From positions 1 to 35,599 of the forward strand of contig JAOUHF010000014.1 in the NCBI GenBank assembly GCA_029865325.1: a stretch of DNA of 35,599 bases, given 5' to 3'. The position numbers and the translations under genes were made by a program. The notes under the pieces are model-generated. The model did no database searches. It worked only from the letters and a program-made list of their open reading frames with translations, and was not told the origin of the DNA. Source of the stretch: Thermoleophilia bacterium (GTDB lineage: Bacteria > Actinomycetota > Thermoleophilia > Gaiellales > Gaiellaceae). How positions within the stretch are numbered: position 1 is the stretch's first letter; the number at the start of each line of letters is the position of its first letter. Below are positions 338 through 15,092 of this stretch, piece after piece.

Positions 338-1146
338 TGCTCGACGACGCCGTTCGCCGAATCAGAGAGGCCACCGACCTCGAGCCACGCGTTGGCGTCG
401 TTCTCGGCAGCGGGCTCGGTGGACTCGCCGACGCGCTCGAGAGTCGGGTGGAGATTCCGTACGACGACATTCCGGGCTGGCCAACCTCGACCGCCGTCGG
501 TCATGCGGGCGTGCTCGTTCTCGGAGAGGTCGATGGCGTTGCGATCGCGGTTATGCGCGGACGCGCTCACCTCTACGAAGGAGTCGGCGCAGATCGAGCG
601 GTGTTCGGCGTGCGCGTTCTCGGACGACTCGGCGTACGAACACTGGTCGTGACCAACGCGGCCGGCGGGATCAACGAGGCGTACCGGCCGGGCATGCTCG
701 TGTTGATCTCCGACCACGTGAACCTGCAGGGAGCGTCGCCGCTCGTCGGAACGAACGACGAGGAGCTCGGGCCGCGCTTTCCGGACATGAGCGACGCATA
801 CGATCCCGAGCTGCGTCGCCTGGCGCGTGAGGCCGCGGGGCGGCTCGGCATTGAGCTTCCCGAGGGCGTCTACGCCGCCTGGCTCGGCCCGCAGTTCGAG
901 ACGCCGGCTGAGATCCGCTTCATGCGAGCGGTCGGAGGTGATCTCGCCGGCATGTCGACGGTTCCCGAGGTGATCGCCGCTCGGCACATGGGTGTTCGCT
1001 GCCTCGGCATCTCTGTCGTCACGAACATGGCGGCCGGGGTCCTGCCGGAGAAGATCGACCACAGCGCCGTTCTCGAAGTGGGCGCACGCGCCGCGGGGTC
1101 GCTGACCGCGCTTCTGCGCGAGCTCGTTCCTACACTCTCTGCGTGA
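337..1146 (+). CDS. punA: Purine nucleoside phosphorylase (trimeric, PNP class)
   Basis: This 269-residue protein cleaves purine (deoxy)nucleosides with phosphate to give a free base and (deoxy)ribose 1-phosphate, in cytosolic purine salvage. The phosphate loop GSGLGG is at residues 24-29, VGHAG at about 54-58, RAHLYEG at 77-83, the purine-binding QFETPAE at 186-192 with Glu188, GMSTVPE at 205-211, and VTNMAAGV with Asn230. The Asn and Glu pair is typical of the trimeric 6-oxopurine (inosine/guanosine) enzymes, and the length is normal. The ATG at 337 overlaps the previous stop by one base, and the end overlaps selA by four bases (GTGA). It therefore sits inside one translationally coupled operon with the selenocysteine genes. 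I see no functional link between purine salvage and selenium, so the grouping may be positional only. Confidence 0.95.
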   Translation: MLDDAVRRIREATDLEPRVGVVLGSGLGGLADALESRVEIPYDDIPGWPTSTAVGHAGVLVLGEVDGVAIAVMRGRAHLYEGVGADRAVFGVRVLGRLGVRTLVVTNAAGGINEAYRPGMLVLISDHVNLQGASPLVGTNDEELGPRFPDMSDAYDPELRRLAREAAGRLGIELPEGVYAAWLGPQFETPAEIRFMRAVGGDLAGMSTVPEVIAARHMGVRCLGISVVTNMAAGVLPEKIDHSAVLEVGARAAGSLTALLRELVPTLSA

Positions 1147-2444
1147 AACTTCGCGATCTGCCCTCGGTCGACGAGCTGCTGCGGGACGAGCGGCTGGCCG
1201 CCGAGCCGCACGAACTGACCGTCACGGCGGCGCGCGCGGTGCTCGATCGGGCTCGGAAAGAGATTCAAGCCGGCGCCATGCCTGGCCCGCTCGTCGACGC
1301 CGTGCTCGCGGAGCTGGCCGGCGCCCGGGAGCCATCACTTCGCCGTGTGCTGAATGCCACCGGCGTGCTCGTGCACACGAATCTGGGTCGCGCCCCTCTG
1401 GCCGAGGCTGCGCTTGCGCGCGTCGTCGAGGTCGGGGGCGGTTACTCGAATCTCGAGTACGACCTCGCTCGTGGTGAGCGCGGCTCGCGGCAGGACCACC
1501 TCGCGCCGCTCCTCCGACGGCTGACCGGAGCGGAGGCTGCGCTCGTCGTCAACAACAACGCAGCTGCTGTGCTGCTCGCCCTCGCCGCGCTGGCTGAAGG
1601 GCGTGAAGTCATCGTGTCTCGCGGTGAGCTCATCGAGATTGGCGACGGCTTCCGCATCCCCGACGTCCTGGCTCGCTCCGGGGCGAGTCTCGTCGAGGTG
1701 GGAACGACGAACCGAACAAGGGCGACCGACTACGAGCGCGCGATTGGCCCGGAAACAGCGGTTCTCCTCCGTGTACACCAGTCGAACTTCCGCGTCGTCG
1801 GTTTCTCCGAGCGGCCGCAGCTCACCGCGCTCGCCGAAGTCGCGCGACGGCACGAGCTGCCGCTCGTCGACGACCTCGGCTCGGGCGCACTGGTGGCAGT
1901 GGGAGACGAGCCGACTCCGGCGGAAAGCCTGCGCGCGGGGGCGGATCTCGTGAGCTTCTCGGGCGACAAGCTCCTCGGCGGGCCGCAGGCGGGCGTGGTG
2001 GTGGGGCGCGCCAACCTCGTCGAGCGGCTGCGACAGCACCCACTCCAGCGAGCACTGCGTGCCGACAAGCTCACGCTCGCGGCTCTCGAGGGCACGCTCT
2101 CGGTCTCTCTCGATCCCGACGCAAGAGACCAGATCCCTGTGCTTCGCATGCTTCACGAACCGCTCGAGGCGGTGCAAGCGCGGGCCGAGTATCTGGCCGC
2201 ACTCGTCGGCGGAGAGGTCGAGGAGACCGTGGCGCGCGTGGGCGGCGGAGCGCTCCCGCTCGCCGAGCTTCCGAGCGCCGCGTGCGCGGTCGAGGAGTCG
2301 CTGGCCGAGCCGCTGCGCCTCGGCGATTCGCCGGTGATCTCCCTCGTCCGCGACGGCCGCACGCTCCTCGACTGCCGCACCCTCACCGATGCGGAGATCG
2401 ACGAGGTCGCCGGGGCGGTTCGTGCGGCCCGACGCGATGCGTAG
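1143..2444 (+). CDS. selA: L-seryl-tRNA(Sec) selenium transferase
   Basis: SelA is a PLP enzyme that converts seryl-tRNA(Sec) to selenocysteinyl-tRNA(Sec) using selenophosphate. The 433 residues are close to the usual family length. Visible family segments are LNATGVLVHTNLGRAPL (about 70-86), NLEYDLARGERGSR (103-116), VVNNNAAAVLLAL (135-147), EVGTTNRTR (185-193), VHQSNFRVVGF (211-221) and DDLGSGAL (243-250). The PLP Schiff-base lysine is Lys276 in SFSGDKLLGGPQAG. The GTG start at 1143 overlaps the phosphorylase stop as GTGA. Downstream, 56 nt separate it from selB; this spacer contains a short GC hairpin (CCGGGC-GT-GCCCGG, 2448-2461) before the selB ribosome site. tRNA-Sec and a selenoprotein gene in the same window confirm that the function is used. 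Confidence 0.97.
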   Translation: MKLRDLPSVDELLRDERLAAEPHELTVTAARAVLDRARKEIQAGAMPGPLVDAVLAELAGAREPSLRRVLNATGVLVHTNLGRAPLAEAALARVVEVGGGYSNLEYDLARGERGSRQDHLAPLLRRLTGAEAALVVNNNAAAVLLALAALAEGREVIVSRGELIEIGDGFRIPDVLARSGASLVEVGTTNRTRATDYERAIGPETAVLLRVHQSNFRVVGFSERPQLTALAEVARRHELPLVDDLGSGALVAVGDEPTPAESLRAGADLVSFSGDKLLGGPQAGVVVGRANLVERLRQHPLQRALRADKLTLAALEGTLSVSLDPDARDQIPVLRMLHEPLEAVQARAEYLAALVGGEVEETVARVGGGALPLAELPSAACAVEESLAEPLRLGDSPVISLVRDGRTLLDCRTLTDAEIDEVAGAVRAARRDA

Positions 2445-2500: not shown

Positions 2501-4192
2501 ATGCCGCTGACGGTCGGAACTGCAGGCCACATCGACCACGGGAAGACGTGGCTCGTCCGGGCGCTCACGGGTAAGGACACCGATCGCCTGCCCGAGGAGC
2601 AGCGACGTGGGATCTCTATCGATCTCGGGTACGCGCCACTCGAGCTCGACGACGGTCGGACGCTCTCGGTCGTGGACGTTCCCGGGCACGAGCGCTTCGT
2701 CCGTACGATGGTCGCCGGCGCGACCGGCATCGATCTCTTCCTGCTCGTGGTCGATGCCGGCGAGGGCGCCCGCCCGCAAACGCACGAGCACCTCGCGATC
2801 CTCCGACTGCTCGGCGTCGAGAACGGCGTCGTTGCGGTGACGAAGATCGACGCTCTCGATCCCGAGACAGTCGAGCTCGCTGCGGAGGAGAGCCGAGACC
2901 TCGTGCCGGGGGCCGAGGTTGTACCGGTCAGCGCGAAGACCGGGGAGAGGCTCGACGAGCTCCGGACCGCGCTGGGACGTGCAGCCGATCGCGTGGAGCG
3001 CGTGCGTGCGAACCGGCCGACGCGGTTGTATGTGGACCGCTCGTTCTCGCTGCGGGGGTTCGGCACGGTCGTAACGGGCACACTCTGGTCGGGCTCTATT
3101 GGAGAAGGCGACGAGCTGCGGATCGAACCCGCGGGTCGTTCGGTCCGCGTCCGCAGCGTCCAAGTCCACGATCGCGACGTCGAGCGTGCCGAATCGGGGC
3201 AGCGGGTCGCCGTCAGCCTCCCGGGTGTCGAGCGCCGAGAGGTGCGTAGGGGGGACGCCCTGGTGGTGCCGGGCGCGTACCCGACCTCGTATCGCCTCGA
3301 CGTCGCCCTCGAGGAGCTCGAGCCGATTCCGCCCGACGCGCGCATCCTGATTCATGTCGGCACGGGCCAGTCCGCCGGGCGGGTCGTCCGCGTCGGTGAG
3401 CGCTTCGCGCAGCTCCGCCTTGCCGCCCCCGTCATCGCAGCCCGTGGCGACCGCGTGATCCTCAGGGGTGAGACCACCTTGGGCGGGGGGACGGTCCTCG
3501 ATCCCGCGCCCCCACGGCACCGCGACCATACGAGGATGGAGCTCCTGAAGCGCGGTGATGTAGCCGCGACTATCCACGCGCCCGTCCTCGTGGAGTCGCT
3601 TCGGTTCGTGCTCGACGGAGAGCCCGAGGGAGTCGTGCGCGGCGGGCCGTGGGCGTTCTCTGGCCTGTGGCTCGCGGAGCTCGAGAGCGAGCTTCGAGCC
3701 AGCCTCCAGGCCGCCGATCCGATCGACCCCGGCATTCCACCGCCGAGCGCCCCGTGGGCAGTCGACGTGCTTCCCCTATTGGCGTTCGAGCGTCGAGGCG
3801 CGAAGCTCTACCTCCCCGGTGCGGAGGCCACGCTCGGGGCTCGAAGCGCGGAGGCCGAAGCGCTCGAGCGGGAACTGGCGGGTATCGGTGTTCGCGCGAC
3901 GAAGGTTGAGGACAACGAGCTCGCCCGGTTTCTCGAGGCGAGCGGGCGGCTCGTGCGGCTCGGCGACGGGTACGCGATCGGTGCCGAGCAGTACGAGGTC
4001 GCGAGGGACGTCATGCTCACCGAATGCCGTAGCGCGGGTGAGATCACGCTCGCTCGGTTCCGCGACCTCGCCGGCACCGGGCGGCGTGACGCTCAGCTCC
4101 TCCTCGAACGGTTCGACCAGGACGGCCTCACTCGCCGGATTGGCGACCGCCGAGTGCTTCGCCGAGCCGCTACGAGCAGCTCGTCGTCGTGA
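2501..4192 (+). CDS. selB: Selenocysteine-specific elongation factor SelB
   Basis: SelB is an EF-Tu-like GTPase that delivers Sec-tRNA(Sec) to UGA codons marked by a SECIS hairpin, which it binds through C-terminal winged helices. The ATG at 2501 was chosen because GTP-binding homology begins at once and GGCGGAGG lies just upstream; the frame is open further upstream but runs through selA. G motifs in the 563 residues: G1 GHIDHGKT (9-16), G2 near RGISIDLGYA (36-45), G3 DVPGHERF (59-66), G4 TKID (114-117), G5 SAKTGE. Domains 2 and 3 follow (RLYVDRSFSLRGFGTVVTGT), then a winged-helix region to the serine-rich end. It is somewhat shorter than E. coli SelB (614). The 3' end overlaps the convergent pilin-like gene by 23 bp. 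Confidence 0.96.
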   Translation: MPLTVGTAGHIDHGKTWLVRALTGKDTDRLPEEQRRGISIDLGYAPLELDDGRTLSVVDVPGHERFVRTMVAGATGIDLFLLVVDAGEGARPQTHEHLAILRLLGVENGVVAVTKIDALDPETVELAAEESRDLVPGAEVVPVSAKTGERLDELRTALGRAADRVERVRANRPTRLYVDRSFSLRGFGTVVTGTLWSGSIGEGDELRIEPAGRSVRVRSVQVHDRDVERAESGQRVAVSLPGVERREVRRGDALVVPGAYPTSYRLDVALEELEPIPPDARILIHVGTGQSAGRVVRVGERFAQLRLAAPVIAARGDRVILRGETTLGGGTVLDPAPPRHRDHTRMELLKRGDVAATIHAPVLVESLRFVLDGEPEGVVRGGPWAFSGLWLAELESELRASLQAADPIDPGIPPPSAPWAVDVLPLLAFERRGAKLYLPGAEATLGARSAEAEALERELAGIGVRATKVEDNELARFLEASGRLVRLGDGYAIGAEQYEVARDVMLTECRSAGEITLARFRDLAGTGRRDAQLLLERFDQDGLTRRIGDRRVLRRAATSSSSS

Positions 4193-14005: not shown

Positions 14006-14170
14006 ATGAAGAAGTTTTTCGTCGCACTGGCGATCGCCGGCCTGATGGGCCTGCTGCTCCTGGTCGCCGGCACTGCACAGAACAAGGGCTGTTTCCCGTG
14101 GCAAACCGCCGTCACGACCGGGGGCGGCGCGTTCTCGGAGGGCGACCGCAGCCAGAGGTTCTGTCGCTGA
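14006..14170 (+). CDS. Small secreted or membrane-anchored protein (54 aa)
   Basis: A 54-codon ORF begins with two lysines and a hydrophobic stretch (FFVALAIAGLMGLLLLVAG, about residues 4-22), then a short polar tail with two cysteines (KGCFPW and the C-terminal RFCR). It looks like a signal peptide or a single membrane anchor. Third-codon positions are overwhelmingly G or C, as in the neighbouring genes. A TACATT box lies 6 nt upstream with CTGGCA 17 nt before it, and AGGGA directly precedes the ATG. I do not recognise a family. The TGA stop is 11 nt before the 3' end of the convergent tRNA-Sec gene. Confidence 0.65.
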   Translation: MKKFFVALAIAGLMGLLLLVAGTAQNKGCFPWQTAVTTGGGAFSEGDRSQRFCR

Positions 14171-14181
14171 CCGGTCGCTGA

Positions 14182-14274
14182 CGGAGCGGCGCCGGAGTCG
14201 AACCGACCGAGCCGTGGGTTGCACGACCGCACGAGTTTTGAAGACCCGCTGGGCCACCGGGCCCATGCCGCTCC
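14182..14274 (-). tRNA. selC: tRNA-Sec (UCA anticodon)
   Basis: This 93-nt gene (without CCA, which is not encoded) folds as a bacterial selenocysteine tRNA. The acceptor stem is 8 bp (GGAGCGGC with GCCGCTCC), the D stem is 6 bp (TGGGCC/GGCCCA) with a four-base loop CGGT, and the anticodon stem is 5 bp (CGGGT/ACTCG) around loop CTTCAAA. The anticodon UCA corresponds to plus-strand 14239-14241. A long variable arm follows (GTCGTG/CACGGC around CAACC), then the T arm GTCGG-TTCGACT-CCGGC. The 8+5 bp acceptor/T helix, extended D stem, long extra arm and G discriminator base separate it from an ordinary tRNA-Ser or opal suppressor. SelA, SelB and a selenoprotein gene lie in the same window. Confidence 0.96.
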
Positions 14275-14281
14275 GCCGCGC

Positions 14282-14287
14282 AGGCTA
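14282..14287 (-). promoter_or_regulatory. -10 box placed 7 nt before G1 of tRNA-Sec
   Basis: TAGCCT on the minus strand is followed by exactly 7 nt and then the first nucleotide of the mature tRNA. The spacing equals that of the leaderless mRNA promoters here, so transcription may begin at G1 with no 5' leader. Confidence 0.55.
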
Positions 14288-14317: not shown

Positions 14318-14323
14318 TACGCT
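14318..14323 (+). promoter_or_regulatory. Leaderless -10 box (TACGCT, 7 nt before ATG)
   Basis: TACGCT is followed by exactly 7 nt and the ATG at 14331, predicting a leaderless mRNA for the lipid gene cluster. Confidence 0.55.
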
Positions 14324-14330
14324 CGCTGGC

Positions 14331-15092
14331 ATGTCACGGACAGCGCTCGTGGTGGGTGCACTTGCGGCGGCGGTCGCGCTCGGCGTCGTTGCGGTGTGGT
14401 CCGTCTTCCTGCGAGACACTGTGGAGCCGGTCGGCGTCGACGAGGCGGTCACGAGCTTCCGCACGGATACGGAGTCCACGCTGGATCAGCTGTCGCCCAT
14501 TCCCGAGGGCGTGTACGTGTACGCGACGGACGGGTACGAGAAGACCGATGCGCTCACCGGTGTCAGGCACCGCTACCCGAGTCGGTCAACGATCACGATC
14601 ACCGCGGCGGACTGCGGGGTCAGCTTGCTCTGGCGCGTGCTTGATGGCCGCTCGACCGAATGGATCTACTGCACGACCTCGGACGGCTGGGAGCTCGCGT
14701 CGCAGGACGAGCAGCACACATTCTTCGGCCGGACGGAGAGCACGACCTACGTCTGCGCGAACACGCCCATCAGGCCTGGGAGGGCCCTTCTACGCTGGCC
14801 CGTGGCGTGCTCTACGGACGCCGCCGAGGAGACGGGCTATGGACGCGTGGTGGCCCAGGAGCGCATCGCTGTTGGAGGCACGTCGGTCGCGACCGTTCAC
14901 GTTCTCAAGACCACGTCCTTTACGGGCGAGATCCGAGGAACGTCGGAGCACGACATCTGGTTCGACTCGAAGTCGGGCATCCCCGTGAAGATGAACATGG
15001 TGAGCCGTACGACGAACGACTCGCCTGTAGGCGACGTGCACTACGAGGAGGACGTCACGCTGCGGCTCGCGTCGCTGAGGCCGCGGCGATGA
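14331..15092 (+). CDS. Membrane-anchored extracytoplasmic protein, unknown function
   Basis: The 253-residue protein starts with an uncleaved-looking membrane helix (ALVVGALAAAVALGVVAVWS, about 5-24), followed by an extracytoplasmic domain rich in beta strands with four cysteines (ADCGV, IYCTT, YVCAN, VACST). The late segment TSEHDIWFDSKSGIPVKMN and EEDVTLRLASLRPRR resembles outer-face lipoprotein-like beta domains that bind lipids, but I do not recognise a named family. It heads a tightly coupled operon: its stop overlaps the acyltransferase start as ATGA. The operon content implies a role in envelope lipid handling. It appears to be transcribed leaderless from TACGCT. Confidence 0.75.
   Translation: MSRTALVVGALAAAVALGVVAVWSVFLRDTVEPVGVDEAVTSFRTDTESTLDQLSPIPEGVYVYATDGYEKTDALTGVRHRYPSRSTITITAADCGVSLLWRVLDGRSTEWIYCTTSDGWELASQDEQHTFFGRTESTTYVCANTPIRPGRALLRWPVACSTDAAEETGYGRVVAQERIAVGGTSVATVHVLKTTSFTGEIRGTSEHDIWFDSKSGIPVKMNMVSRTTNDSPVGDVHYEEDVTLRLASLRPRR

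Follow-up and report, generated by a model that had tools for sequence, protein, structure and literature searches.

Where does transcription of a bacterial selenocysteine tRNA (tRNA-Sec) begin? The question is raised by a 35,599-nt stretch of DNA (positions 1–35,599 of contig JAOUHF010000014.1, assembly GCA_029865325.1; this whole stretch is called the window), which comes from a 2.59-Mb metagenome-assembled genome (MAG) of a soil actinobacterium of the Gaiellaceae (Actinomycetota, Thermoleophilia). In the window, a tRNA-Sec gene is preceded by a −10 box of the form TANNNT. We consider it highly probable that RNA polymerase starts this tRNA at its mature first nucleotide, G1, which would yield a leaderless tRNA that bypasses RNase P. 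The elements concerned are listed below (N7 denotes 7 nt between the box and the first base of the gene, and so on).

14182–14274, minus strand: tRNA-Sec (UCA), with G1 at 14274, G73 at 14182, an 8-bp acceptor stem and no encoded CCA (ARAGORN, Rfam RF01852)
14275–14281, minus strand: spacer gcgcggc, 7 nt, from the −10 box to G1, last base C at −1 (sequence)
14282–14287, minus strand: TAGCCT, −10 box of the TANNNT type (sequence; kept at N6–7 in 36 of 39 Gaiellaceae tRNA-Sec genes)

The tRNA-Sec gene and the position of its box

ARAGORN calls a tRNA-Sec with a UCA anticodon at 14182–14274 of the minus strand, and the Rfam match (14183–14274) covers the entire RF01852 model with 64.1 bits, above the cut-off of 47. 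With its UCA anticodon, its long acceptor and variable arms and this full-length match, the gene belongs to RF01852. The 8-bp acceptor stem GGAGCGGC/GCCGCTCC, together with G73, sets G1 at 14274. Read along the minus strand, the order 5′ of the tRNA is gccgc-TAGCCT-gcgcggc-GGAGCGG, and an earlier, sequence-only reading of this DNA, which had placed a TAGCCT box exactly 7 nt before G1, is exact in coordinates and distance. Of the positions on each strand of the window, 0.097% carry TANNNT, and the probability that a box stands 6 or 7 nt before the gene by chance is ∼0.2%. The same reading had likened the spacing to that of nearby leaderless mRNA promoters; TANNNT-N7-ATG indeed occurs five times in the window, compared with 0.9 expected.

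We used leaderless mRNAs to calibrate the start site, taking ATG and GTG starts of open reading frames (ORFs) of at least 80 amino acids in the window plus about 240 kb of same-family sequence (273 kb). The spacing from TANNNT to the start codon peaks at N6 (31 cases) and N7 (28 cases) over a background of ∼4–5 per spacing. Such a double peak characterizes leaderless mRNAs and puts the predicted start of RNA polymerase at the seventh or eighth base after the box. At the mapped transcription start sites of another actinobacterium, Propionibacterium acnes, the TAnnnT motif is centered ∼9 nt upstream, corresponding to ∼N6 (PMC3848588). The N6–7 spacing of tRNA-Sec coincides with the leaderless-mRNA peak and thus points to a promoter that starts on nucleotide 1.

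Conservation of the spacing and contrast with ordinary tRNAs

We gathered tRNA-Sec genes from whole genomes, mostly MAGs, covering family, order, class and phylum. For a few Gaiellaceae genes whose 5′ end ARAGORN had misplaced, covariance-model coordinates were used. The comparison with relatives that the sequence-only reading had proposed as a check comes out in its favor: the box is kept at N6–7 in 36 of 39 Gaiellaceae genes (N6 in 17, N7 in 19; the other 3 have it at N9–10), in 7 of 8 genes from a second family of the order, and in numerous further families of the Actinomycetota. The 39 Gaiellaceae genes have no other TANNNT at 0–49 nt upstream. The compared sequences are related and hence not independent, though their flanks are saturated: the remaining upstream DNA cannot be aligned (mean identity 30%, exceeding 50% in 3 of 630 pairs). 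Since the box is kept between such flanks, it is held by selection and not by mere relatedness. Within the same class, it is found at N6–7 in families f11 (6/7 genes), f8 (1/1) and f10 (Solirubrobacteraceae; 4/15). In other families of the phylum, 70 tRNA-Sec genes were picked by score or as about one per family before upstream regions were read, which is not a random draw; 17 of them have the box at N6 and 13 at N7 (30/70), forming two clear modes. Spacings in family f23 may be 1 nt longer than given, as the model start there seems to lie one base early (C1/T1).

The trait is patchy in the phylum, and families f29, f31, f32, f41, f55, f60, f68 and f73 show no box 6–7 nt before tRNA-Sec. In family f26 (L281, L284, L286–L292, L295, L308), the sequence near G1 is often TATAAT or TAATAAT-like, which amounts to a −10 box close to consensus at about the putative leaderless spacing.

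Ordinary tRNAs of the same genomes behave differently. Among 81 ordinary Gaiellaceae tRNA genes with a box (5′ ends from ARAGORN, accurate to about ±1 nt), 80 have it at least 8 nt upstream, compared with 3 of 39 tRNA-Sec genes (Fisher's test, 6e-26). It mostly lies 8–14 nt before the mature 5′ end, both at loci L002–L038 of the host's own genome and in relatives. The precursors should consequently carry predicted leaders of only ∼1–7 nt, far shorter than in Escherichia coli selC, whose TATAAT ends 30 nt before G1, predicting a leader of ∼23 nt for RNase P. The sole exception at 7 nt or less is a tRNA-Leu(UAA) in the host's own genome (L002; G000:C4:8059-8144, minus strand) with TACACT at 6 nt, possibly a second leaderless tRNA.

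The contrast recurs at N6–7 in the second family of the order (tRNA-Sec 7/8 versus ordinary 1/12, p = 0.0008) and, counting genes with a box, in f11 (6/6 versus 0/10, p = 0.0001) and f10 (4/5 versus 0/5). Across 15 genomes from other families, nearly all of them selected for a leaderless-looking tRNA-Sec, 3 of 105 ordinary tRNAs have a box at 7 nt or less; in several distant families ordinary tRNAs as a rule lack a box in the nearest 20 nt. The shift amounts to about 3–4 nt, of which the additional base pair in the acceptor stem of tRNA-Sec would explain only 1 nt. As far as DNA can tell, the start on nucleotide 1 put forward by the sequence-only reading is well supported by the conserved N6–7 box and by a contrast specific to tRNA-Sec.

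Were initiation confined to G1 itself, the base at −1 would be expected not to be a competing purine start. In the N6–7 tRNA-Sec genes this base is C in 72 of 85 and a purine in only 2, compared with purines in 86 of 286 ordinary tRNAs (p = 3.7e-9) and in 27 of 102 other tRNA-Sec genes (p = 2.7e-6). Leaderless mRNAs of the Gaiellaceae are less strict (purine at −1 in 19/59); an extra 5′ base may matter less for them than for tRNA-Sec.

Several observations weigh against a start on G1. A start 1–2 nt upstream of G1, followed by trimming, would also fit the DNA, and a conserved −35 element was not seen. Families f2, f5, f6, f7 and f9 of the same class are without the arrangement, except for one f7 gene, and a box at N9–10 occurs in the 3 Gaiellaceae genes mentioned above and in all 3 f2 genes, which suggests loss or absence of the leaderless state in these genes. 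As the arrangement is missing from several families of the class, it is favored but not required. The N9–10 loci (L053, L057 and L059 in f2; L049, L054 and L187 in the Gaiellaceae) have T or G at −1.

Host machinery and neighboring genes

The host genome encodes RNase P, with rnpA for its protein and rnpB for its RNA, the latter cut by a contig end. Loss of RNase P as the cause of a leaderless tRNA-Sec is thereby ruled out. At the gene level the selenocysteine pathway is complete: the genome contains selD and a formate dehydrogenase α subunit with a single in-frame TGA (context VHSCEST-U-HGPTL), and two further genes lie in the window.

1143–2444, plus strand: selA, with a GTG start at 1143, 6 nt after TACACT (leaderless type; TIGR00474, E = 1.4e-157)
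2501–4192, plus strand: selB, selenocysteine-specific elongation factor (TIGR00475, E = 2.3e-102)

This complete machinery and the full Rfam match rule out a pseudo-tRNA or a non-functional Sec gene. As far as sequence can show, the tRNA-Sec works, in a cell whose other tRNAs are processed in the conventional way. The TACACT-to-GTG segment of selA (1131–1143) is a leaderless-type mRNA start within the Sec operon. Leaderless-type starts also flank the tRNA gene. Upstream, a divergent gene has the following elements.

14318–14323, plus strand: TACGCT, −10 box at N7 from the ATG (14331) of the divergent leaderless gene (sequence)
14331–15092, plus strand: divergent ORF of 253 amino acids with a leaderless-type start (no match in an NCBIfam search)

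On the other side, a small ORF of 54 amino acids (14007–14171, plus strand), convergent with tRNA-Sec and with one hydrophobic segment near its N terminus, also has a leaderless-type start, with TACATT 6 nt upstream of its ATG.

Proposed mechanism, parallels and alternatives

We propose that tRNA-Sec has its own σ70-type promoter with a TANNNT −10 box 6–7 nt before G1, from which RNA polymerase would initiate on G1 itself, with a pyrimidine at −1 and G at +1. The primary transcript would have no 5′ leader, its first base being the mature 5′ end within the 8-bp acceptor stem, and RNase P, needed for the other tRNAs, would find nothing to remove. We infer that RNase P would never act on this transcript and that the 5′ triphosphate would be retained; it probably stays because the 5′ end is base-paired. 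Bacterial RNase P normally leaves an acceptor stem of 7 bp, with tRNA-His and tRNA-Sec as exceptions (PMC11143913). Selection may favor a leaderless start, as any leader would require a cut that leaves the unusual 8 bp; initiation on nucleotide 1 would fix the end of tRNA-Sec without an abnormal RNase P cut. A second reason may be that the tRNA is carried by SelB and not by EF-Tu: it may tolerate a triphosphate and may not need a 5′ monophosphate.

RNA polymerase III transcribes eukaryotic tRNA[Ser]Sec under the control of upstream elements and starts at its first nucleotide; the tRNA carries a 5′ triphosphate. Work on it in Xenopus is cited in PMC2695483. The gene described here resembles the eukaryotic one in that the promoter would put the start at the mature 5′ end, RNase P is available but would be unneeded, and a triphosphate is expected. 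It differs in having a bacterial sigma-factor promoter, another polymerase and presumably an independent origin, and in that its triphosphate is predicted from DNA. In Nanoarchaeum equitans, all tRNAs start at +1 or −1 at a fixed promoter distance and carry 5′ triphosphates, and RNase P is absent (PMC10100707). The fixed promoter distance and the predicted start at +1 are shared, but in the Gaiellaceae host the RNase P genes are present, ordinary tRNAs have their box at 8 nt or more, and essentially only tRNA-Sec would be affected. The 8-bp stem of E. coli tRNA-Sec has been ascribed to an abnormal cut by RNase P (Burkard and Soll 1988, as cited in PMC3874170). E. coli selC belongs to the same tRNA family and has the 8-bp acceptor stem, yet its box lies at N30, compared with N7 here, and our gene does not conform to its leadered pre-tRNA-Sec type. 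The promoter is of the same type as those of actinobacterial leaderless mRNAs, with TANNNT ∼6–7 nt before the start (PMC3848588), whereas the product is a structural RNA.

Could the start instead lie 1–3 nt upstream of G1, with RNase P trimming a very short leader as it would for the ordinary tRNAs of the family? Those tRNAs seem to carry leaders of only a few nucleotides, the cell has RNase P, and the choice of start site can shift by one base. Yet the spacing of tRNA-Sec falls on the leaderless-mRNA peak and outside the range of ordinary tRNAs, initiation at −1 would hit a pyrimidine in nearly all genes, and this explanation gives no reason for a 3–4-nt shift in tRNA-Sec alone; we regard it as unlikely. 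It is less plausible still that gene compaction or a general leaderless habit, with nothing special to tRNA-Sec, placed the box. Leaderless mRNAs are common in the host family and ordinary tRNA leaders are short, but tRNA-Leu(UAA) is the only ordinary Gaiellaceae tRNA of 81 at 7 nt or less, and the contrast between tRNA-Sec and ordinary tRNAs recurs in distant families. A leaderless habit of all tRNAs is ruled out by the ordinary tRNAs of the same genomes. That the box is a chance match, with the true promoter further upstream, can be dismissed almost entirely: many features were scanned in the sequence-only reading, in which a ∼0.2% coincidence at a single gene could surface, but the box is conserved in dozens of genomes with unrelated flanks.

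A further alternative concerns the fate of the 5′ end and is compatible with a start at G1. The triphosphate could later be trimmed to a monophosphate, and mature tRNA-Sec would then look ordinary. RNA pyrophosphohydrolases exist in bacteria, which speaks for trimming, but they generally prefer unpaired 5′ ends, which speaks against it. HisRS prefers monophosphate ends even in Nanoarchaeum, which also speaks for trimming; the leaderless tRNAs of Nanoarchaeum keep their triphosphates, which speaks against it (PMC10100707). We regard trimming as possible, if somewhat doubtful.

In bacteria, the maturation of tRNA 5′ ends by RNase P is regarded as universal, and it has been described as such for an actinobacterium (PMC3848588). 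A literature search, covering open-licence papers only, found no earlier report of a leaderless bacterial tRNA-Sec. If initiation on G1 is correct, this lineage would harbor a lineage-wide exception to RNase P processing that is confined to tRNA-Sec, bacteria and eukaryotes would have come to the same odd solution separately, and the finding would point to the long acceptor stem, or else to the special elongation factor, as the cause. A broader proposition, for and against which we see the balance as even, is that across much of the Actinomycetota tRNA-Sec is the one tRNA born 5′-mature: it would start at nucleotide 1 and escape RNase P, its 5′ triphosphate may steer it to SelB and off EF-Tu, and it would represent an independent parallel to eukaryotes driven by the awkward 8-bp stem.
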